In this document: positions 19,378 to 31,786 of the stretch, one piece after another | Numbering within the stretch: position 1 is the stretch's first letter | Layout of the letters: each line of letters begins with the position of its first letter | From: Candidatus Thioglobus sp. NP1 | GTDB taxonomy: Bacteria; Pseudomonadota; Gammaproteobacteria; PS1; Pseudothioglobaceae | Length of the DNA: 64,000 bases | Reading direction: 5' to 3' | Assembly (NCBI RefSeq): GCF_003326015.1 | Contig: NZ_CP023860.1 | Location: 62,001-126,000, forward strand | Translations under genes and position numbers: made by a program | The notes under the pieces: model-generated | Database searches by the model: none | What the model was told of the DNA's origin: nothing | The model's input: only the letters and a program-made list of their open reading frames with translations

Positions 19378-20997
19378 ATGAGTAGGACATACGACTTCAT
19401 CATAATTGGTGCAGGATCAGCTGGCTGCCTAATAGCCAATAGACTTTCTGAGAATCCTAGTAATAGTGTTTTGTTAATTGAAGCTGGAAGAAAAGATAAT
19501 AATCTTTGGCTACATATTCCAGTGGGTTATTTTAAAACTATGAATAATCCAAAATTTGATTGGATGTTCAAGCTCGAAAAAGATAAAGGTGTAAATAATC
19601 GACGAATCGATTGGCCAAGAGGTAAAGTCTTAGGAGGGTCAAGTGCACTTAATGGCTTACTCTACATAAGAGGTGACAGGCATGACTATGATAACTGGAA
19701 AGATTTAGGTAATGAAGGCTGGAGTTATAAAGATGTATTACCTTACTTTAAAAAATTTGAATGTCAGGAGAATGGTAGTAATGAATACCATGGTGTTGAT
19801 GGTGAGCTAAAGGTTTCAAATTTAAGACTTAAAAGAAAGATAGCTGATCTTTTTATAAAAGCATCGGAAGAAATAGGTATCCCAAATAATCCAGACTGCA
19901 ATGGAGAAAATCAGGAAGGTGTTGGTTACTTTCAGCAAACATCATTCAAAGGTTTTAGAAGGAGCTCTTATCGGTCATTTTTAAATAAGAAAATAAGGAA
20001 TAGAAAAAATCTAACAATAATTACCAATACTCAAGTTAGTAAAGTCCTTTTTAAAAATAAAAAAGCTATTGGGGTTCAGTGTATTGAAAGTAATACTAAT
20101 AAAGATCGAAATATTTATGCAAACTCTGAAGTAATTATTTCTGCAGGCTCTATTAGCTCTCCACAAATACTTCAACTCTCTGGGATTGGCGACGAACAGC
20201 ATTTAAAACGGCTTGGAATAAATGTTATCCATAATAATCCAGCTGTTGGAAAGAATCTTCAGGACCATTTACAAGTTCGAATGGTTTTTAAAACAAATAC
20301 AAGGACACTTAATGATGAATTAAATACTTGGTGGAAAAAAGCTTTAATTGGCTTACAGTATATGCTCTTTAGAACAGGTCCATTAACGCTCAGTGCGAGC
20401 CAAGTCTATGCATTTACTAATACTTCTTTAGACGGCTCAAGGCCCAATATCCAATTCCACATGCAGCCATTAAGTGCTGATAAGCCGGGTGATGGTGTTC
20501 ACCCCTTTTCAGCATTCACAATGTCTATTTGTAACCTTCGTCCTGAAAGCAGAGGTGAGGTAAAGATCAACTCTTCTGATCCAACTCAACTGCCAAAGAT
20601 TATTCCTAACTATCTTTCTACTGATAGTGACAAAAAAATTGCAATTGACTCCATAAAGGTAGCCAGAAAAATTGCTGATGCGGACTCATTAAAGAAATAT
20701 ATTCTAGAAGAATATGTTCCTGGCCCAGCTTTTGAATCTGACGAAGAACTTCTTGAAGCTGCTAAAAATAATAGTCAAAGCATTTATCACCCTGTTGGAA
20801 CCTGCAAAATGGGTAATGATATTGATAGTGTAGTTGATGAAAAACTTAAGGTTCATGGGGTCTCTGGTCTAAGAGTTGTAGATGCTTCAATAATGCCTGA
20901 ACTTGTTTCAGGAAATACGAATGCACCTACTATGATGATTGCAGAAAAAGCTTCAGAAATGATTCTTGCTGATTACGATCTAAGTTTGACTAAGTAG
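19378..20997 (+). CDS. GMC-family FAD-dependent alcohol/choline dehydrogenase-like enzyme
   Basis: This 539-aa GMC oxidoreductase oxidises an alcohol with FAD. The FAD motif GAGSAG lies at residues 11-16, GMC signature 1 around residue 80 (PRGKVLGGSSALNG), signature 2 around residue 258 (SAGSISSPQILQLSGIG), and the catalytic histidine in YHPVGTCKMG with the partner asparagine near GNTNAPTM. Choline dehydrogenase (BetA) is the best-known relative, but no betB or bet transporter is nearby. The gene diverges from the TRAP operon, so it may oxidise an alcohol linked to that locus. Confidence 0.88.
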   Translation: MSRTYDFIIIGAGSAGCLIANRLSENPSNSVLLIEAGRKDNNLWLHIPVGYFKTMNNPKFDWMFKLEKDKGVNNRRIDWPRGKVLGGSSALNGLLYIRGDRHDYDNWKDLGNEGWSYKDVLPYFKKFECQENGSNEYHGVDGELKVSNLRLKRKIADLFIKASEEIGIPNNPDCNGENQEGVGYFQQTSFKGFRRSSYRSFLNKKIRNRKNLTIITNTQVSKVLFKNKKAIGVQCIESNTNKDRNIYANSEVIISAGSISSPQILQLSGIGDEQHLKRLGINVIHNNPAVGKNLQDHLQVRMVFKTNTRTLNDELNTWWKKALIGLQYMLFRTGPLTLSASQVYAFTNTSLDGSRPNIQFHMQPLSADKPGDGVHPFSAFTMSICNLRPESRGEVKINSSDPTQLPKIIPNYLSTDSDKKIAIDSIKVARKIADADSLKKYILEEYVPGPAFESDEELLEAAKNNSQSIYHPVGTCKMGNDIDSVVDEKLKVHGVSGLRVVDASIMPELVSGNTNAPTMMIAEKASEMILADYDLSLTK

Positions 20998-21038
20998 ACG
21001 TATTTGTGTATTGTTAATTCTATTTTAAATTCAATTTA

Positions 21039-22136
21039 ATGCCCTCCTCAATTTCGCAATTTCGTCGCAGTGAACTCTTCAAACCTGCAATTATAGTACC
21101 CATCGTAATTATGCTATTTTTCTCAATATTTAATTTGACGGCACCTTCAGATCCAGCCAGAATTGCATATGCCTTTGAGTTAGGAGTTGTCAATAAGGAT
21201 ATCGGCCCTTCATTACCTCTAGTTTCTAATCAAGCAATTAAAACCTTATCTAAATCACTTCCTTTTAAGCTAACTATTATTAAAGATTCTGAGACTGCAA
21301 GAGAGGCTCTTTCAAGAGGAGAGATTGCTTCAGTAATTACCTTTCCAAAGAACTTTTCTCAGCTTGCACTTAGTGACGAAAAATTAAATATTGAAATCTT
21401 AAATTCACAGCACCTAACAATATCTGAGACTCAGATATCTAGTCAGCTCCCAGGTACTATTCAGATGGCTCTTTCTACTTTTATAGCTAACCTAAGATTA
21501 GCAAAATCCAATAATCAGGCGCCTGTTTCAGGAATGTTGGTCAATACTAATATAGAAACGCTTTATTCCGCGAAGAGTTTAGCTTCTGTTCCCTCGCCCT
21601 TTGTTATGAGTTTTACAAGTTGGCTCGCTTCAATGGTAGGTTCAATTCTTCTATTCCTTGCAACGAAACAGATGCCCCTATTAAATCGCGCATATTTGAG
21701 AACCTTAATTCCAATAATGGTTATGGGTTCTGCAAGCCTAGTTTTAGCTATTGTTATTACTTTAACAACACTTCAATGGGAGTCGTTTTTAATGGCCTGG
21801 CTTAGCGTATGGCTAGTCAGTGTTTGTTTGTCATGGTTATTTCTTGGCGTCTTTGAAATTATTGGTCTTGCGGCTTTATTAATTATTCTTCCTGTAGTTC
21901 AGTATCAGTCAGTACTTAGTGGCTCGATGATGCCTGTAAGTGCCGCACCAGAATGGTTAGAATTAATTGGTAACTCAGTGCCTTTTGATGCAATAGGTGG
22001 AGCCTATAGAGCGGTTATCTTTGGCTCTGATGGCAACCTTCCTTTTACTTGGTTATTAGGTGCTGCATTAATTGGCCTTTTCTTAAGTTGGGGCTCTGCA
22101 ATATTTAAAGGTCGTATGAAAAGAACCTGGAAATAA
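21039..22136 (+). CDS. Orphan ABC-2/YhgE-like membrane protein
   Basis: The 365-aa protein has one N-terminal membrane helix (residues 17-32), an extracytoplasmic domain of about 150 residues and then five or six helices from residue 190 to the end. This is the layout of ABC-2 type permeases and YhgE/Pip-type proteins. No ATPase gene is adjacent, unlike most ABC-2 systems, so it may use an ATPase encoded elsewhere or not be a transporter. The segment SVLSGSMMPVSAAPEWLELIG fits the ABC-2 family, whose members carry a P-x-W/L turn there. It is followed convergently by the DUF6279 gene. Confidence 0.65.
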   Translation: MPSSISQFRRSELFKPAIIVPIVIMLFFSIFNLTAPSDPARIAYAFELGVVNKDIGPSLPLVSNQAIKTLSKSLPFKLTIIKDSETAREALSRGEIASVITFPKNFSQLALSDEKLNIEILNSQHLTISETQISSQLPGTIQMALSTFIANLRLAKSNNQAPVSGMLVNTNIETLYSAKSLASVPSPFVMSFTSWLASMVGSILLFLATKQMPLLNRAYLRTLIPIMVMGSASLVLAIVITLTTLQWESFLMAWLSVWLVSVCLSWLFLGVFEIIGLAALLIILPVVQYQSVLSGSMMPVSAAPEWLELIGNSVPFDAIGGAYRAVIFGSDGNLPFTWLLGAALIGLFLSWGSAIFKGRMKRTWK

Positions 22137-22961
22137 CTATATTTGTTCAATCAAATTACTAATATCAGTTCTATATCGCACTAGTTGATCACGAAGTTTT
22201 TTATTTTGTTTCTCTGAACGAGAGTTTAATATTTCAGCAATTAACTGATGCGTTATATTAATATTATGAGAATATTTGATTCGATAATTTTGTGATTCTA
22301 AATTATCTCTATTTGTTATCCCATTTAACCTTTCCTCCCAGTCATTTTCTCTCTGAAGTATTAAGGAAAGATTATTAATAAGAGCCTTACGATTTTCTAA
22401 CCATTCATTATCTGATCTATACATATTTTCACTAGCAGTTCTTAAAAGAACTAACTGATCTTTATTTAATGAGCCCATAAACCTACCTAAGTTTTTTCGA
22501 AATCTATTTACAACATCTTTTTGATAGGTTTGATCATTTCGGTTTAGATATTTATTTTCATTTTCAATTGTTTTTCGTTTCATTACATTAAGGAATTGTT
22601 TAATCTGTTCATCTGATAGATCCTTAGCTAATGGAGTTAACCATGATAGAATTTGCTGTTCAGTTCGAAACCATGAATTTTCAATATCTTGGGTAATTAA
22701 GGCAATATCTTCAGCTTTTACTTCATTATCTAGAAGACCCTCTAAACTGTAAATTATTTCTACATACTTTGGTAACTCTTGAGTACGGTGCCATTTAAAA
22801 AAAGGAATTAAACGCTCATTTAAGCTTTGTTTTTGTTCACTAGTAAAATCGACATAACTTGCTAGATACCATGGCAATAAAAAATCAATCCGATTATAGA
22901 CAAATGTTGTTGAGGAACATCCAGTTAGGAATAATAAGGCAATTAAAGCTAATTTTTTCAT
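22137..22961 (-). CDS. DUF6279-family lipoprotein
   Basis: This 274-aa protein has a lipoprotein signal (MKKLALIALLFLTGC, with the lipobox LTGC) and a helical, charged mature region. The segment NRIDFLLPWYLASYVDFTSEQ is typical of the DUF6279 family of gammaproteobacterial lipoproteins. Its function is unknown. It ends one base past the stop of the convergent ABC-2-like gene. Confidence 0.85.
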   Translation of the reverse strand: MKKLALIALLFLTGCSSTTFVYNRIDFLLPWYLASYVDFTSEQKQSLNERLIPFFKWHRTQELPKYVEIIYSLEGLLDNEVKAEDIALITQDIENSWFRTEQQILSWLTPLAKDLSDEQIKQFLNVMKRKTIENENKYLNRNDQTYQKDVVNRFRKNLGRFMGSLNKDQLVLLRTASENMYRSDNEWLENRKALINNLSLILQRENDWEERLNGITNRDNLESQNYRIKYSHNINITHQLIAEILNSRSEKQNKKLRDQLVRYRTDISNLIEQI

Positions 22962-23095
22962 AATTACGTCAAATATAATTGAATATCAATAAAACTTTTT
23001 TAAAAGCCTAAATTCTATTACTTTCTACATAGAGGGTATAAATAAATAAAACTATGTTTAAATTAATACTTATATAGACTAATTAACCAATTTAA

Positions 23096-24145
23096 ATGAA
23101 GAACCAAATTCACAATAAAAACATTGAAGAAGAAGTAACTATTACAACCCCTATTAACTTAAGGGGGAAAATTCCTCTCAGTGACGATGGTGCTGACAAT
23201 ATTTTAACGAGTCGTAAAACTATAGATGATATTTTTTTAAAAAAAGACTCTAGATTGATTGTGATTGTTGGTCCATGCTCAATTCATCATATTGGAGCTG
23301 CAAAAGAATATGCACTTAAACTAAAGTCTCTACAAAATGAAGTCAAGAACTCCATTTATTTAGTAATGAGGGTTTATTTTGAAAAGCCAAGAACAACAGT
23401 TGGCTGGAAAGGTTTAATTAGTGATCCTGATATGGATAACTCTCTTGATGTTGACAAGGGTCTTCATCAAGGTCGAGAGCTTCTAGTTTGGCTAGCTGAA
23501 AATGAAATACCAGCTGCAACAGAAGCACTCAATCCTATTACTCCTCAATATTTGGCTGATTTAATTTCTTGGTGTGCAATTGGTGCAAGAACAACAGAGT
23601 CTCAGACTCATCGAGAAATGTCGAGTGGGCTTTCAATGACAGTTGGCTTTAAAAATGGCACTGATGGAAATATAGATATGGCAATTAATGCCATTAAAGC
23701 TTGCTCATCGCCTCAAAGTTTTTTAGGTATTAATGATAAGGGGCAGATTGCAACATTTAAAGCAAAAGGAAATAAATCCTCTCATCTAATACTTAGAGGT
23801 GGAAAAAAACCTAACTATCATATTGATGACATTAAAGAATGTGAAGTACTCCTGAAAAAAAATGGACTAGCTGAAAGGATAATGGTTGATTGCTCTCATG
23901 ACAATTCAAATCAAGATTATAGAAACCAAGGAAAAGTTATTGAAGAGATTACTAAACAATTAGTGTCAGGCAATAAATCAATTTTTGGGCTAATGTTAGA
24001 AAGTAATCTTTTTTCTGGTAAGCAAAAAATATTGGAAAATCAAGATGATATGGATTATGGTGTTTCTGTTACAGATGGGTGCATAGATTGGGAAGAAACT
24101 CAAAAAATAATCAAAAAATTAGCTCAAAAAATATCTTCACCTTAA
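23096..24145 (+). CDS. aroG: 3-deoxy-7-phosphoheptulonate (DAHP) synthase, class I
   Basis: It condenses phosphoenolpyruvate and erythrose 4-phosphate, the first step of aromatic amino acid synthesis. The 349-aa protein has the AroF/G/H layout: VGPCSIHH with the metal cysteine, MRVYFEKPRTTVGWKG, GARTTESQTHREMSSG, and HLILRGG followed by VDCSHDNSN. The N-terminal 30 residues resemble the regulatory extension of feedback-sensitive isozymes. Which aromatic amino acid inhibits it cannot be told, so the symbol aroG is generic. Confidence 0.93.
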   Translation: MKNQIHNKNIEEEVTITTPINLRGKIPLSDDGADNILTSRKTIDDIFLKKDSRLIVIVGPCSIHHIGAAKEYALKLKSLQNEVKNSIYLVMRVYFEKPRTTVGWKGLISDPDMDNSLDVDKGLHQGRELLVWLAENEIPAATEALNPITPQYLADLISWCAIGARTTESQTHREMSSGLSMTVGFKNGTDGNIDMAINAIKACSSPQSFLGINDKGQIATFKAKGNKSSHLILRGGKKPNYHIDDIKECEVLLKKNGLAERIMVDCSHDNSNQDYRNQGKVIEEITKQLVSGNKSIFGLMLESNLFSGKQKILENQDDMDYGVSVTDGCIDWEETQKIIKKLAQKISSP

Positions 24146-24171
24146 TCTTAGCAACAAATTTATAAGATTAA
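24142..24171 (+). terminator. Hairpin at the end of the DAHP synthase gene
   Basis: TTAATCTTA (24142-24150) and TAAGATTAA (24163-24171) form a perfect 9-bp stem with a 12-base loop, overlapping the stop codon. There is no T run after it, so it may stabilise or process mRNA rather than terminate it. The remaining gap to 24366 has no gene. Confidence 0.4.
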
Positions 24172-24365
24172 TAGTCAAGAACTTCAAGGTGGCCATCTGG
24201 AATTATAAAAGGGGCTCAATTTCACTTTAAAAGCGGAATGGATGTCTAATTAAGAACTATAAAATTACCTTTATATAGCTGCTTTAAACCTCTTACAAAA
24301 AAATAATTGACAGTGATTTGATTTAGTATCAAAATGTGGCTTATAGTTAAACTCAAATCATTGTT

Positions 24366-25922
24366 ATGTCTAGAAGAAAATCTGGTGGTAGGGAAGCAAG
24401 AATAGCTGAAAGAAGTGCGCCCCTTAAGGAAGAAGAAAAACCAGTTAAACCAGGTGAGATTGGTGGAAGATATAAGCCGCTAAGTGATAAGCAAGTTTTA
24501 TCAATAGAAGCTAATATTTATCGTATATTAGAAGAAATTGGTTTTGGTGATGCTACTCCTCATTGTATTGAGAAGTGTGTTGCGTTTGGAGCTATTCTTG
24601 GTGATGATGGAAGATTAAGAATGCCAAGAGAAGTTGTAGAGAAAGCCATGGGTCTTTCTCAACAAAGTCTTACTCTTCATGCTCAAAATCCAAAATATGA
24701 TTTAGACCTTAGTGGATCAAGGGTTCACTTTTCAACGGCGGGGGCTGCAGTGCTTATTGCTGACCCTGAAAATAATGAGTACAGAGAATCTGAAAGTCAA
24801 GACCTATTTGATATGGCAAGAATTGCTGACAAATGTGAACATATTCATATGTTTCAAAGAACTTGTGTACTAAGAGATATTGCTAGTCCTCGTGAAATGG
24901 ATCAAAACTCAGTTTATTGTATTGCAATGGGGACTGAAAAACATGTTGGTGCAAGCTTTACAGAGTCAGATCATGTTACTGATGCGCTTGAGATGCTTCA
25001 TATTATTGCTGGTAGTGAAGAAAAATGGCGTGAAAGACCTTTTTTAAGTATGAGTAATTGTCATGTTGTTCCTCCAATGAAATTTGCAGAGGAATCTTTA
25101 GAATGTGTTCGTGTAGGTGTTGAGGGTGGTATGCCAATATTACTTCTATCAGCAGGTCAGGCAGGTGCAACTGCACCGCCACTTCTACCAGGAGTTGTAT
25201 CACAAGCATGGGCTGAATGTCTTGGTGGTCTGGTCTATGTCAATGCAATTAAACCTGGGGCGCCTGCGATTCTTGGAACTTGGCCTTTTGTATCTGACCT
25301 TCGAACTGGTTCTATGTGTGGTGGCTCTCCAGAACAAGGATTAATTTCTGCCGCTTGTGCGCAAATGGGTAACTTCTTAGACCTTCCAACTGGAACACCT
25401 GCAGGTATGACAGATTCTAAATTCCCTGATTTTCAGGCTGGCTCTGAAAGAGCGTCAACTCACACAGTAACTGCAATAGCGGGTGCAAATATAGTATATG
25501 AATCTGCAGGGATGTACGCAAGCCTTTTAGGCACATGTCCAGAAAGTTTGTTACTAGATAATGATTTATTAGGTGCATCTATGAGAATGACTAAGGGCTT
25601 TAGTGATGATAGCGAAGAGTCTCTTTGTTTTGAAACAATTAAAGATGTTTGTTTAAATGATAAAGCTCACTACTTAGGTTCAGACCAGACAATTAATGTT
25701 ATGCAAAGTGAATATATATACCCTGACTTGAGTGATAGAGATAGCCCTAATGATTGGGCAGATATGGGTAAGCCTATAATACTTGAAAAAGCAATTCAAC
25801 AAAAAAAAGAGATTCTTTCTGAACACTTTCCAGATCATGTTAGTGATGATATTGATAAAAAAATACGCGAAAAATTTAATATTAAATTAAGCAGAAAAGA
25901 TATTGGAAGAAAACCTCTTTAA
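24366..25922 (+). CDS. MttB-superfamily (trimethylamine methyltransferase-like) protein, non-pyrrolysine
   Basis: The 518-aa protein belongs to the MttB superfamily, whose members transfer a methyl group from quaternary or tertiary amines to a corrinoid protein. No in-frame TAG occurs, so it is not the pyrrolysine-type trimethylamine enzyme and is closer to MtgB-like enzymes acting on betaines. Glycine-rich TIM-barrel segments such as FSTAGAAVLIAD and LLSAGQAGATAPPLLPG are visible. A basic N-terminal tail of 35 residues precedes the domain. The next gene, 12 bases on, encodes a DMGDH-like protein. No corrinoid-protein gene is in the window. The substrate is unknown. Confidence 0.85.
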   Translation: MSRRKSGGREARIAERSAPLKEEEKPVKPGEIGGRYKPLSDKQVLSIEANIYRILEEIGFGDATPHCIEKCVAFGAILGDDGRLRMPREVVEKAMGLSQQSLTLHAQNPKYDLDLSGSRVHFSTAGAAVLIADPENNEYRESESQDLFDMARIADKCEHIHMFQRTCVLRDIASPREMDQNSVYCIAMGTEKHVGASFTESDHVTDALEMLHIIAGSEEKWRERPFLSMSNCHVVPPMKFAEESLECVRVGVEGGMPILLLSAGQAGATAPPLLPGVVSQAWAECLGGLVYVNAIKPGAPAILGTWPFVSDLRTGSMCGGSPEQGLISAACAQMGNFLDLPTGTPAGMTDSKFPDFQAGSERASTHTVTAIAGANIVYESAGMYASLLGTCPESLLLDNDLLGASMRMTKGFSDDSEESLCFETIKDVCLNDKAHYLGSDQTINVMQSEYIYPDLSDRDSPNDWADMGKPIILEKAIQQKKEILSEHFPDHVSDDIDKKIREKFNIKLSRKDIGRKPL

Positions 25923-25934
25923 AGAAAAATTAAT

Positions 25935-28352
25935 ATGAAATCACATGCTCAAGTAGTAATTATTGGTGGAGGCTCACTTGGTGTAAACCTTATGTATCAC
26001 CTTACCCAAGAAGGATGGACAGATATTGTTCTTGTAGAAAAAGGTGAGCTTACTAGTGGCTCTACTTGGCATGCTGCTGGGTTATGTCCAAATTTTAATG
26101 GTAATCACACCTTATCTAGTATTCATGAATATACAATTAAATTGTATGATGAAATCCTACCTAAAGAAACTGGACTATCTTCTTCTTTTCACAAAACAGG
26201 TTCACTAAGAGTTGGACATGATGAAGTTGAACATCAATGGTTTACCAATATTCTTAGTAGAGCAAACCATATTGGTTGTGAAATGCACTTTGTATCAAAG
26301 GAAGAGGCTTCGGTCATTAATCCAATGATGAATTTTGATAATGCAAAAAGCATTTTATACACGCCAAATGATGGTCATGTTGACCCAACAACTGTTGTAA
26401 CTCAGCTTGCACAACTTAGTAAAAAAGCAGGCGCTGAAGTTAGTAACTTTAATCGAGTAATTGATATTAATATTCTTCCAACTGGGGAATATGAAGTTAT
26501 TACTGAATTAGGTAATATCATTGCTCAGCATGTTGTTAATGCTGGTGGCTGCTTCTCACCTCAAGTTGGAGCTATGGTAGGCTCATATGTTCCATTAGTG
26601 AATCTTCAACATCAATATTTAATTACTGATAGCCATCCTGATATTGCTGCTCTTACAAAAGAACTTCCTGTAACCAGAGACTCTATTGCAGCCTCATATA
26701 TTCGACAGGAAGGGAGTGGGATATTAATTGGCCCATATGAAACCAGAGGCTCTAAACCATGGGGACTAGACGGAGTTGATTGGTCATTTGACAGAGAACT
26801 ATTTGAAGGTGATTTAGATAGACTAATGCCTTGGTTAGAAAGATGCATGGACATTTTTCCCTTATTTAAAGAAGTTGGGATTAGTACTGTAATAAACGGA
26901 CTAATTACTCATACGCCTGATGATAATCTCTTAGTGGGTCCTGCCAAAGGGTTAAGAAATTTTTGGAATCTCTGTGGTGCAAGTATTGGAATTGCCCAGG
27001 GTGGTATTGGTAAGTATTTAGCACAATGGATGGTCCATGGGCAAACAGAACTTAATATGGCTTCACTTGATAGCCGTCGATTTGATCATTGGGCTGATAA
27101 AACTTACTGCACAACCAGAGCAATTGAATCTTATGAAAGAATGTACTCAATGGCAGCTCCAAATGAAAATCGTCCTCATGGAAGACCCATTAGAGTTAGT
27201 GCACTGCATACATTATTAAGTCAAAAAGGCGCCATTCATACTGTCAATACTGGCTTTGAAAAACCCTCTTGGTTTGCAACAGATGGTACTAGAAATGAAA
27301 CTCTAACTTGGGGTCATAGTGAAGCACATGAGGTAGTTGCTCAAGAATGTGCTGCTGTTCAAAAATCATGTGGCATTACTGATATTAGTGGAACAGCTAA
27401 ATTTCGTATCACAGGGAAAGATGCATTTAAATTTTTAGATCATTTATCTTGTAATAAGCTTCCCTCCAAGGATGGAAGAATAGGCTTGACTCTTTTCCAT
27501 GCTCCAAATGGAGGCATTATGGCTGAACAAACTATTAGTAGAATTGATAAAGAAAATTTTCTATTAATGGGTGCAATTGGATCAGAAGTAAAAGATTATC
27601 AGTGGCTTGAATGGCATTCAGATGATTATGATGTCGTGATAGAAAACTTAACTGAAAGTTGGGGTGGTCTCCTTTTAACTGGGCCAAATGCTCGAAAAAT
27701 TTTAAGTCAATGCACGCAAGAGGATCTTAGTAATAGTGCATTTTCATGGCTAAGCTGTAAAACAATTAAAATAGATTCAGCCTCTGTTTTTGCCATGAGA
27801 GTATCCTACGCTGGTGAGCTTGGTTGGGAGCTTCACATGCCAACATGGCAACTTATCTCAATATATGAGTCTTTAATGGAGATGGGTGAGGAATTTGGGT
27901 TAAAAGATTTTGGTGGCCTGGCATTTAATAGTATGCGTTTAGAAAAAATGTACAGAGCTTATGGAGCGGAATTTACAGAAGAAATTTCTGCACTTGAAGC
28001 TGGAATGGAAAGATTCCTCGACCTTGATAGAAACTTTATTGGTGCTGATAATATTCGAGAGCGCCTCTCTATGGGAGTCAAAACTAAGTTAGCTTTCCTT
28101 ATTTTTGATGATCAAATTCCAGCAGAATGCTTTGGCAATGAAGCAGTATTTGACGGTGATAATTTAAGTGGCATTATAACTAGTGGTGCCTATGGATATA
28201 GAGTTGGCCACAGTATTGCTTTCGCGTACTTAAAGCCAAATCTATGCATAGAAGGCTCTAAACTTAGAGTTGAAACTTCACTTGGAAGTCGAAATTGTCA
28301 TGTAAGTATCGATCCTGCTTATGATAAGACTAATGAAAAACTTCGCTCATAA
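25935..28352 (+). CDS. Dimethylglycine/sarcosine dehydrogenase-like FAD protein with GcvT domain
   Basis: This is an 805-aa two-part enzyme. Residues 1-370 form a DAO-type flavoprotein with IGGGSLGVNLMYHL and the SGSTWHAAG segment, whose histidine carries covalent FAD in dimethylglycine and sarcosine dehydrogenases. Residues 430-800 form a GcvT-like aminomethyl/folate domain (ITDISGTAKFRITGKDAFKF, then FNSMRLEKMYRAYGAEF). Known relatives oxidatively demethylate N-methyl amino acids and pass formaldehyde equivalents to tetrahydrofolate. It is co-directional with the MttB-like gene, suggesting stepwise demethylation of one methylated amine. Confidence 0.87.
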   Translation: MKSHAQVVIIGGGSLGVNLMYHLTQEGWTDIVLVEKGELTSGSTWHAAGLCPNFNGNHTLSSIHEYTIKLYDEILPKETGLSSSFHKTGSLRVGHDEVEHQWFTNILSRANHIGCEMHFVSKEEASVINPMMNFDNAKSILYTPNDGHVDPTTVVTQLAQLSKKAGAEVSNFNRVIDINILPTGEYEVITELGNIIAQHVVNAGGCFSPQVGAMVGSYVPLVNLQHQYLITDSHPDIAALTKELPVTRDSIAASYIRQEGSGILIGPYETRGSKPWGLDGVDWSFDRELFEGDLDRLMPWLERCMDIFPLFKEVGISTVINGLITHTPDDNLLVGPAKGLRNFWNLCGASIGIAQGGIGKYLAQWMVHGQTELNMASLDSRRFDHWADKTYCTTRAIESYERMYSMAAPNENRPHGRPIRVSALHTLLSQKGAIHTVNTGFEKPSWFATDGTRNETLTWGHSEAHEVVAQECAAVQKSCGITDISGTAKFRITGKDAFKFLDHLSCNKLPSKDGRIGLTLFHAPNGGIMAEQTISRIDKENFLLMGAIGSEVKDYQWLEWHSDDYDVVIENLTESWGGLLLTGPNARKILSQCTQEDLSNSAFSWLSCKTIKIDSASVFAMRVSYAGELGWELHMPTWQLISIYESLMEMGEEFGLKDFGGLAFNSMRLEKMYRAYGAEFTEEISALEAGMERFLDLDRNFIGADNIRERLSMGVKTKLAFLIFDDQIPAECFGNEAVFDGDNLSGIITSGAYGYRVGHSIAFAYLKPNLCIEGSKLRVETSLGSRNCHVSIDPAYDKTNEKLRS

Positions 28353-28409
28353 TTTTACAACTGCACTAAAATACTCTACAAAATTATATTGCAAATCTAA
28401 ATATTTCTA

Positions 28410-28601
28410 ATGAATGAACAAACCCGACTAAAGCAAATGAAGAGCCCTTGCATAAGTATTTGCAAATACAATAAGAATAACTTCTGTATCGGTTGCAAAA
28501 GACACATGAATGAAATATTTGATTGGTTTGATTTTACTGATGATATGAGAACTGCTATTATGAAAGATTTAGAAAGTCGAGATATTGATACTAAGCCTTA
28601 G
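28410..28601 (+). CDS. DUF1289 small cysteine protein
   Basis: A 63-aa protein with the DUF1289 pattern: SPCISICKYNKNNFCIGC with four cysteines, then a conserved acidic and tryptophan-containing helix (EIFDWFDF). The cysteines probably bind a metal ion or Fe-S centre, but the function of this widespread family is unknown. It ends 11 bases before the convergent LysE gene. Start could also be the internal ATG at residue 10. Confidence 0.85.
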   Translation: MNEQTRLKQMKSPCISICKYNKNNFCIGCKRHMNEIFDWFDFTDDMRTAIMKDLESRDIDTKP

Positions 28602-28612
28602 TAATCAAAAAT

Positions 28613-29221
28613 TTAGAAATAGAATAGACTTAAACCAACACCAATCATTATTATTCCAAAAATCCTATTCACCCTCAAGGCCATTTTTGGACTACTTATT
28701 AGTTGCCTTAATTTTTTTCCAAGAACGCCAATAAAAACTAAACCAAATAATAGTGAAATCGCAACTGTAGCTATAATTTTCAGTCCATAAGATAAGCTTA
28801 CTTGATTAAGATCAATCAAAGATGGAAGGACTGATAGGTAGAAAATCATCACCTTTGGATTAGTTCCTGCTAAAAGGAAACCAGTCAATAATTCTCTCAA
28901 ATGGGATTGAGCTGAAATATCATTATCCATAGTGAATTTGCCAGCAGTCCATTGGGAGTAGCCCAAATAAAATAAATAGCAGGCTCCAAAATACTGGACA
29001 GCATTTGTAATAGGAGTAATCAAGTTAGCAATTGCATTTAAAGAAAAAATGACGATTGTTAGATAAGACAAATCGCCTAAAGTCATGCCAATTGAAAAGA
29101 ATATTGCTGAAGTTAGGCCTTTTGAAGTAGAAATAGAGAGAAGTGCAAGAGTCCCTGGACCGGGGGTTACTGCAAAAATAAAAAGGGTAAAGCCAAGAAC
29201 TATAAAAATATTTATTTCCAT
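28613..29221 (-). CDS. LysE/RhtB-family amino acid exporter
   Basis: A 202-aa inner-membrane protein with about six helices. The N-terminal motif AVTPGPGTLALLSIS is the signature of LysE/RhtB efflux proteins. It shares its length and structure with the second LysE gene at 30158, but the two differ clearly in sequence, so this is not a recent duplication. It follows the EamA gene by 19 bases on the same strand, making a three-exporter group. The substrate is unknown. Confidence 0.88.
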   Translation of the reverse strand: MEINIFIVLGFTLFIFAVTPGPGTLALLSISTSKGLTSAIFFSIGMTLGDLSYLTIVIFSLNAIANLITPITNAVQYFGACYLFYLGYSQWTAGKFTMDNDISAQSHLRELLTGFLLAGTNPKVMIFYLSVLPSLIDLNQVSLSYGLKIIATVAISLLFGLVFIGVLGKKLRQLISSPKMALRVNRIFGIIMIGVGLSLFYF

Positions 29222-29240
29222 AATATATTATTACTCATAG

Positions 29241-30140
29241 CTATTTAAATGGATAAGTAATATTTATCTTGAGGTCAATTAAAACAAATAAAGCGGATAC
29301 GGCTAAAATAATCCCAATAATATTTTGTAAGTTCAGTGCTTCTTGAAAAAATATTGCTCCAAAAGCAATAGCAAAAAATGGTGAGAGCAAACTAAATACC
29401 GAGGTTTTTTTAGATCCTATAACTCTTATACCAGTATAGTAAACTGCGGTAATAGCTGTACCAGCTATAACTGAAACAAAAAGAATATTAATCCAAAAAA
29501 TATAATCCATATCAATTAAAGTTACAAGGAGACTTGTATCATAGGAATAAACCCAATCAATAAGAAATCCAAATAGGCTTATATAAAAGTTAAAAGCCAG
29601 TACATGCATATTCTTCATATAGGCTCCAATAATAGTTACAGCTGCATAAGCCAAAGCCGCCAAAACAAAATAAAGATTACCTCCACTGATTAATAGTGGC
29701 AGGTTATATTGATCAAAATTCATCATTAGAAGAACCCCAATTGTGCCTACTAATAATGCAGCCCAGTCCTTAATAAGTGGCTTAGATTTTTTTGAAAATA
29801 TCATAAAGATGTAGACAAATATTGGAATCAAAACAGTAACCAAAGCAGCCCCTAAGCCAGCAGCACCCCTTTGCATTCCCATAAAATAAAATCTGTAGTT
29901 ACTGATCATAAAGATTGCAATAATCAGCGATAAAGCAAGGTTAAATAAACTAATTTTGATAGGTATTTTCATCCATATCAAAAGTGGAATAGTTGAAAGA
30001 ACAGATAAGAAAAACCTATAAACGACAATCTCATTCTCACCAATATAAAAGGAAAGATATTTTGCTGAAATACCTGATAATGCCCACACAAATGGAACAA
30101 GAATCATTAGAAATGTCATATTTTTTTCAGATTGAAACAT
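29241..30140 (-). CDS. EamA/DMT-family transporter
   Basis: This 299-aa protein has about ten hydrophobic helices in two EamA repeats, the drug/metabolite transporter layout. Typical segments are PFVWALSGISAKYLS at the start and VFSLLSPFFAIAFGAIFFQE in the second repeat. It lies between two LysE-type exporters with gaps of 17 and 19 bases, so the three are probably one operon. The exported metabolite cannot be named. Confidence 0.86.
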   Translation of the reverse strand: MFQSEKNMTFLMILVPFVWALSGISAKYLSFYIGENEIVVYRFFLSVLSTIPLLIWMKIPIKISLFNLALSLIIAIFMISNYRFYFMGMQRGAAGLGAALVTVLIPIFVYIFMIFSKKSKPLIKDWAALLVGTIGVLLMMNFDQYNLPLLISGGNLYFVLAALAYAAVTIIGAYMKNMHVLAFNFYISLFGFLIDWVYSYDTSLLVTLIDMDYIFWINILFVSVIAGTAITAVYYTGIRVIGSKKTSVFSLLSPFFAIAFGAIFFQEALNLQNIIGIILAVSALFVLIDLKINITYPFK

Positions 30141-30157
30141 TATTTCCCTAAGTAATA

Positions 30158-30766
30158 TTAGTAGAGTGCCACAAAAAAACCAACTAAAATCATCGTAATT
30201 CCAGTTGTTTCATTTACACGCTTTATGATTGCTGGATTTTCAACATGTTTTCTTAATCGAAGGCCTAAAATGTTTGCCAGACTCAGAACAAAGAATACTG
30301 TAAGACCAATAACTGTTATTACTTTAATTTCAGTAATTACTGTCAAGTTATCTAAATCTACAAAGATTGGTAAGAAAGATAAGTAAAAAATAATTGTTTT
30401 TGGATTTGTAACACCAACAACAAAGCCTGCAATTAAAAGCTTTAGTATTGAGCTTTTTTTTGTTGACTCTTCAAATTTTACGCCTTTGGATCGCCACTGC
30501 TGAAAGCCAATATATATTAAATATGATGCACCTAATATCTTTACATAAACCATGCTCTCACTAATAACTCCTGCAAGAGCACTTAAGGTCAACATTGCAA
30601 TTGCAACATAAATAATATCCCCTAGCGTATGTCCAAACGAAAGCCACATTGCTGGAATGGGCCCAAATCTCGTAGATGTTGCCAAGACTGCAAAAAGACC
30701 AGGTCCTGGAGAAATTGCATAGACAAAGGTGGCAAACGCCAGTGAAAGAAGGGTCAACAAATCCAT
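30158..30766 (-). CDS. LysE/RhtB-family exporter
   Basis: This 202-aa protein has six hydrophobic helices and the family motif YAISPGPGLFAVLA near residue 18. It is the first gene of the minus-strand exporter group and diverges from accA with about 70 bases between them. Function is inferred from family only; related proteins export amino acids or homoserine. Confidence 0.88.
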   Translation of the reverse strand: MDLLTLLSLAFATFVYAISPGPGLFAVLATSTRFGPIPAMWLSFGHTLGDIIYVAIAMLTLSALAGVISESMVYVKILGASYLIYIGFQQWRSKGVKFEESTKKSSILKLLIAGFVVGVTNPKTIIFYLSFLPIFVDLDNLTVITEIKVITVIGLTVFFVLSLANILGLRLRKHVENPAIIKRVNETTGITMILVGFFVALY

Positions 30767-30835
30767 TGCAAGATTATAAACACTGCTTCTGCTATAATTA
30801 TCATTAAATTATTCTTAGCAATTTAGCATATAAAA

Positions 30836-31786
30836 ATGAACTTAAATTACCTTGACTTTGAACAACCAATTGCTGAACTTGAGGAGAAAATTGATGCCCT
30901 TGAGAGTATTAAAGATGATGCTGATATTGCAAAAGAGATGGATTCACTCAAATTAAAGAGTGAACTCTTAACAAAAAAGATCTTTTCCTCACTCTCTGAT
31001 TGGCAAATTTCTCAACTTGCTAGGCATCCTCAAAGACTTTACACTTTAGATTATATCGATAGTATCTTTGATGAGTTTACTGAACTCTGTGGTGATCGTG
31101 CATTTGCAAATGATAAATCCTTGATTGGAGGTATTGCCAAGATAGATGAACTTACATTTATGTTTATTGGGCAACAGAAAGGACGTTCTACAAAAGAAAA
31201 AATTTATCATAATTTTGGCATGACTAGGCCAGAGGGCTACCGAAAAGCTTTAAGGCTCATGAAGTTAGCTGAAAAATTTTCATTACCTGTTATAACTTTT
31301 ATCGATACACCTGGAGCCTATCCAGGAATTGGTGCTGAAGAGCGCGGTCAAAGTGAAGCAATAGCAAGAAATCTTTTTGAAATGTCAACCTTAAAGACTC
31401 CAATTCTCTCAGTAGTTATTGGTGAAGGTGGATCTGGTGGAGCTCTTGCAATTGGTCTTTCAGATGTCATGATGATGTTTGAATATAGTATCTACTCTGT
31501 AATCTCACCTGAAGGCTGCGCCTCAATACTATATAAAGATGCATCCAAAGCCCCAATTGCTGCAGAGTCCTTGAAGTTAACTAGCAAGCATTTAAAAAAA
31601 CACAAATTAATTGAAAAAGTTATTCCTGAACCTCTTGGTGGAATTCATAGAGATCCAGATACAGCCTCTATGTTTCTGAGAAAAGCACTTGTTAAAGAAC
31701 TTAAAAATCTACTCGAGGTACCAATTGACAAACTAATTGAAGATAGACATGAAAAACTACTAGGCTTTGGTAAATTTAGCGAATAA
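30836..31786 (+). CDS. accA: Acetyl-CoA carboxylase carboxyltransferase subunit alpha
   Basis: AccA and AccD together move the carboxyl group from biotin to acetyl-CoA, the first step of fatty acid synthesis. The 316-aa protein is normal length (319 in E. coli). Diagnostic segments are the N-terminal [15 protein letters not shown] helix, the [20 protein letters not shown] stretch, and [12 protein letters not shown]. The stop overlaps the tilS start by 20 bases. Confidence 0.97.

Follow-up and report, generated by a model that had tools for sequence, protein, structure and literature searches.

The two adjacent genes described here form a real and conserved pair, and the first of them represents a distinct, uncharacterised MttB subfamily within an already known kind of system. 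We consider it quite likely that the pair acts as a demethylation module that handles a methylated amine in two steps and plugs into a shared cobalamin-folate system. As such, it probably belongs with a recently published marine pathway as a variant and is not a B12-free route. The claim of an aerobic MttB route that does without corrinoid is thus discarded as false, and the pair takes its place in a cobalamin-dependent system already published from abundant ocean bacteria.

An MttB-superfamily gene is paired with a DMGDH-like FAD/GcvT gene

In the window (the whole stretch of 64,000 nucleotides that was analysed, G000:C1:62001-126000), a gene of the MttB superfamily (COG5598/PF06253; 518 aa) is located on the forward strand at 24366..25922. 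It is followed on the same strand, after an intergenic gap of 12 bases (25923..25934), by a gene at 25935..28352 encoding a DMGDH-like protein of 805 aa, an FAD-dependent N-demethylase with a fused GcvT domain for folate binding. Both open reading frames, their spacing and their domains were confirmed as originally predicted. The gap is consistent with a single transcript and measures 6-15 bases in relatives from the same genus. The host genome (G000) is a single closed contig of 1,689,404 bases (1.69 Mb, 99.94% complete), and the host is very probably a streamlined ocean bacterium from the genus of Ca. Thioglobus singularis PS1 (Pseudothioglobus).

We also considered the neighbours of the pair within the genus as a hint to its substrate, which gave no lead: the upstream genes vary, with a DAHP synthase gene in G000 (window 23096-24145), and the downstream genes encode LysE/EamA exporters and AccA according to the domain scan. 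In the genus relative G006 (locus L044, G006:C1:188000-206000), the pair is closely preceded by an island of myo-inositol catabolism and ABC transporter genes that includes an MMSDH gene. A small Cys-rich ORF just 3' of the pair (window 28410-28602) resembles DUF1289 by eye.

The MttB-like protein matched PF06253 over profile positions 2-490 of 500 (E = 5.2e-100). Its AlphaFold2 model (mean pLDDT 87.9) was closest to the pyrrolysine-containing MttB of the Methanosarcina MttB-MttC structures 7xcl/7xcn (TMq 0.85), so that both a full-length domain and the MttB/MtgB TIM-barrel fold are present. Methanosarcina MttB, the best structural match, shares 27% identity with the protein and comes from a methanogen (PMC9842639). 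The ORF lacks a pyrrolysine codon and carries Met348 (ATG) at the position of Pyl334 in MttB; its score against TIGR02369, the equivalog model of the pyrrolysine trimethylamine methyltransferase, was 297 bits with a cut-off of 525. In our tree, the clade of the MttB-like protein was well supported and separate from MtgB and from the three paralogues in G000, with the caveat that the long MttB branch makes the attachment of that branch unsure. Judged from its sequence, the protein is a member of a divergent, non-pyrrolysine MttB subfamily.

We examined the MttB active site, as had been suggested with the original prediction. Gly110 and Tyr364 of pyrrolysine MttB are kept as G126 and Y378 and are conserved across the clade, but the corrinoid-touching residues of 7xcn (Thr111, Gly372 and Glu225) are not. 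Since the cobalamin-dependent MtgB is equally devoid of these three residues, their loss says little, and we ruled it out as a sign of corrinoid independence.

The partner protein consists of the domains DAO, FAO_M, GCV_T and GCV_T_C and matches DMGDH over its full length (human 5l46, E = 2e-171; rat 4p9s, E = 2e-169). We found the motifs WHAAG (residues 45-49), in which His46 presumably is the covalent-FAD His of DMGDH, QHQY (225-228), YIRQE (at 255) and the folate motif GELGWE (627-632). The protein thus shows the four domains, the covalent-FAD His motif and the folate-site motif of the DMGDH/SarDH family. It differs from DMGDH in being paired with an MttB gene and in being one of several DMGDH-like paralogues in the genome.

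The corrinoid system is encoded elsewhere in the genome

According to the original prediction, no corrinoid protein gene is visible near the pair. This holds within the window, where a domain scan of the flanking genes (19378-31786) found no corrinoid protein. It does not hold for the genome: in a genome-wide profile search, PF02310 and PF02607 each had one match in G000, in the same 234-aa MtgC-type protein (C1:386457-387161), whose top NCBIfam matches were MtgC and related models, below the cut-offs of those models. The apparent lack of a corrinoid partner is therefore a local artefact. The gene lies some 260 kb outside the window, clustered with genes for an MtgD-type pterin-binding methyl-THF:corrinoid methyltransferase (C1:388777-389673; 361.7 bits, cut-off 259) and a RamA-type activase (C1:390092-392032) that contains the single genome-wide match to RACo (PF14574; C1:391202-391984). 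A search of the genome for MtbC/MtgC-like and RamA-type genes, proposed as a check, accordingly found both; a corrinoid partner elsewhere is one half of what had been named as evidence against the prediction, the other half being its co-expression. G000 thus holds the MtgC, MtgD and RamA genes that define a host of the marine MtgBCD system.

The gene order of the cluster (locus L037) is corrinoid protein, DUF1638, a 300-aa MTHFR-like protein (without a Pfam match and named from reading its sequence only), pterin-binding protein, GFA, RamA, MttB, Fhs, FdhD and formate dehydrogenase, where the names of the last genes, toward formate dehydrogenase, rest partly on reading sequences. Genome-wide, G000 has exactly four PF06253 genes, one homocysteine-methyltransferase-type gene (PF02574) and no MetH-type corrinoid domain. 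Because there is neither a MetH-type nor a second corrinoid protein, the four MttB proteins would have to share the one MtgC. With MtgC as its single corrinoid protein and no MetH-type domain, G000 agrees with the split methionine synthase described by Mausz et al., whereas three members of the genus (G001, G020 and G027) carry an additional ORF of about 1228 aa with MetH-type corrinoid domains. Across the genus, PF02607 was found in 25 of 29 genomes and RACo in 22 of 29; both were present in all 11 genomes that are at least 90% complete.

A similar arrangement is known from Eubacterium limosum, in which several MttB-superfamily enzymes (MtpB, MtcB and MtyB) draw on a shared MtqC, MtqA and RamQ whose genes lie away from theirs (PMC8604678). 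One corrinoid protein and its activase can thus serve several MttB enzymes from another locus, so that physical separation of an MttB gene from its corrinoid gene is normal. E. limosum differs in being an anaerobic acetogen, and the accessible text of that report describes no FAD/GcvT partner gene (PMC8604678).

The gene set of the cluster is that of the MtgBCD(E) system of Ruegeria pomeroyi and other marine bacteria, published in 2025 and reported in SUP05/Thioglobus (PMC12478193). The system of G000 and the published one are both aerobic and marine and combine pfam06253 proteins with a stand-alone corrinoid protein, a pterin-binding MtgD, RamA and DUF1638, and both have multiple pfam06253 genes per genome (PMC12478193); no MetH was found in G000. 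In contrast to that system, the MttB-like protein of the pair belongs to another subfamily than the MttB of the MtgC cluster and is devoid of the predicted glycine-betaine contacts, and its gene adjoins a DMGDH-like gene far from mtgC.

The MttB clade is associated with corrinoid genes

We compared 80 loci of the MttB clade (54-93% identity; Gamma- and Alphaproteobacteria), 16 within the genus and 64 outside. MtgC was not found near the pair in any of the 16 loci within the genus. Outside the genus, MtgC, MtgD or RamA was located within about 9 kb in 19 of the 64 loci, and in four of them (L063, L067, L073 and L083) the orthologue was followed immediately, in the same orientation, by the MtgC gene (gaps of 1, -8, 46 and 10 bases). 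Among 30 clade-bearing genomes, RACo was detected in 29 and PF02607 in 29, and each exception has the other gene.

In an even sample of the class Gammaproteobacteria (276 genomes, 16 of them matching the MttB-like protein), RACo was sought in 13 of the matching genomes and in 57 without a match. It was present in 13/13 genomes with MttB and 0/57 without (Fisher P = 2e-14), and in 8/8 genomes of the protein's own clade versus 0/57 (Fisher P = 2e-10); these P-values overstate independence because the genomes are related, although the carriers span several families. In an earlier, separate genome set, RACo was found in 2/2 genomes with MttB and 1/27 without.

These results bear on a corrinoid-independent route, in which MttB would bypass cobalamin and give the methyl group straight to folate or the DMGDH/GcvT partner. 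Such a route would agree with the absence of a corrinoid gene next to the pair in the window and in every Pseudothioglobus-like locus, and with the replaced 7xcn contacts. It is, however, at odds with the corrinoid and activase genes of the same genome, the four loci with mtgC directly after the orthologue, the near-perfect co-occurrence with RACo and a fold that is that of cobalamin-dependent MttB/MtgB. We regard it as highly improbable and, on the grounds of genome content, mtgC adjacency in relatives and co-occurrence, ruled out corrinoid-free methyl transfer as an explanation.

The pairing is conserved among Gamma- and Alphaproteobacteria

The FAD/GcvT gene was located directly downstream of the clade MttB gene in 47 of the 75 loci with room for it and anywhere in the locus stretch in 69 of 80; 15 loci showed MttB followed by two FAD/GcvT genes. 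Linkage is thus kept within the genus and far outside it; unlinked genes in relatives, named beforehand as counter-evidence, were not the finding. The proposal of a linked pair in a folate-linked, aerobic route of a marine bacterium is supported. The subfamily and its FAD/GcvT partner are widespread, occurring in Pseudothioglobus, Woeseiaceae, Halieaceae, Pseudohongiella, Kiloniella and others. No FAD/GcvT gene was found in the locus stretches of some clade members (e.g., L110, L114, L119 and L122); the enzymes therefore do not necessarily work as a pair in every case.

Such loci, a few in number, and the variable upstream flank (inositol genes in G006, DAHP synthase in G000) would be expected if the genes were neighbours by operon convenience, acting on different substrates and both feeding C1 units to folate. 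Adjacency that is kept at 54-93% identity across Alpha- and Gammaproteobacteria speaks against this, as does the fact that two further MttB subfamilies within the genus (G000 C1:165567-169579; L039/L040) show MttB-FAD/GcvT pairing too, and we judge mere convenience to be unlikely.

In the second pair of G000 (C1:165567-169579, equal to L035:15568-19580), MttB is 20-22% and the FAD/GcvT protein 36% identical to the respective protein of the pair studied here. In L041:7708-14335 (G015:C5), about 5 kb with genes for an acyl-CoA dehydrogenase and a 3-hydroxyacyl-CoA dehydrogenase separate the N- and C-terminal halves of an MttB gene from the 37-40% subfamily, which represents an insertion or a misassembly.

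Proposed route and candidate substrates

For the demethylation module that we favor, homology and genomic association suggest the following route. The MttB-like protein would move one methyl group from a methylated amine to Co(I)-cobalamin on MtgC, the only stand-alone corrinoid protein of the cell, which the RamA-type protein would keep active. The methyl group on MtgC would then be transferred by the MtgD-type protein to tetrahydrofolate; if R. pomeroyi is a guide, MtgC and MtgD may also serve methionine synthesis. In a third step, the DMGDH-like partner would oxidise a methyl group of the tertiary or secondary amine that is left, yielding 5,10-methylene-tetrahydrofolate. The C1 units could subsequently enter folate oxidation, for which Fhs and formate dehydrogenase genes sit in the MtgC cluster.

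BCCT transporter genes, found near 11 of the 64 clade loci outside the genus, suggest a quaternary ammonium compound as the substrate. Together with the 15 MttB-FAD-FAD triplets and the fact that the FAD protein has DMGDH as its best characterised relative, they would suit a glycine-betaine module, in which MttB would form dimethylglycine, the FAD/GcvT protein sarcosine and, in relatives, the second FAD/GcvT protein glycine. The binding site argues otherwise. Docking of MtgB predicted glycine-betaine contacts at Y94, N199, R309 and H345 (PMC6855144). At these positions the MttB-like protein has G126, H233, G343 and E379, and no member of the clade keeps any of the four contacts; Y94, R309 and H345 are each replaced uniformly throughout. 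All four are present in the MttB paralogue of the MtgC cluster and in S. meliloti 4yyc, and that paralogue is also far closer to MtgB (417 bits to 2qne versus 183 for the protein studied here). Moreover, the genome holds several other DMGDH-like genes. Since its subfamily is devoid of the docking-predicted contacts of MtgB, the substrate of the MttB-like protein is probably not glycine betaine; the paralogue, in which the contacts are kept, appears to be the better candidate for this compound. A glycine-betaine module is thus a doubtful explanation of the pair.

Tentatively, the subfamily could instead represent an undescribed substrate class. Its active site retains Gly110 and Tyr364, with Met instead of pyrrolysine and an invariant Glu where MtgB has the predicted carboxylate-binding His. 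The substrate might then be a methylated amine from the sea that lacks a carboxylate of the glycine-betaine type; it would be demethylated via the shared MtgC and the product passed to the dedicated FAD/GcvT demethylase. If true, each substrate would supply one C1 unit linked to cobalamin and another that is produced oxidatively and linked to folate. A literature search on homarine catabolism with MttB-type genes gave nothing usable. Knowing the substrate of the subfamily would reveal the dissolved, methylated nitrogen compound on which its carriers draw.

In about 10 Gammaproteobacteria, the clade MttB gene has a D-glutamate cyclase/5-oxoprolinase neighbourhood, which was not taken as evidence because the loci may be closely related. 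In L068, L076, L080, L081, L086 and L098, the genes nearby encode D-glutamate cyclase, 5-oxoprolinase (PxpABC-type), a class IV aminotransferase and a 5-FTHF cyclo-ligase, alongside a divergent LysR gene.
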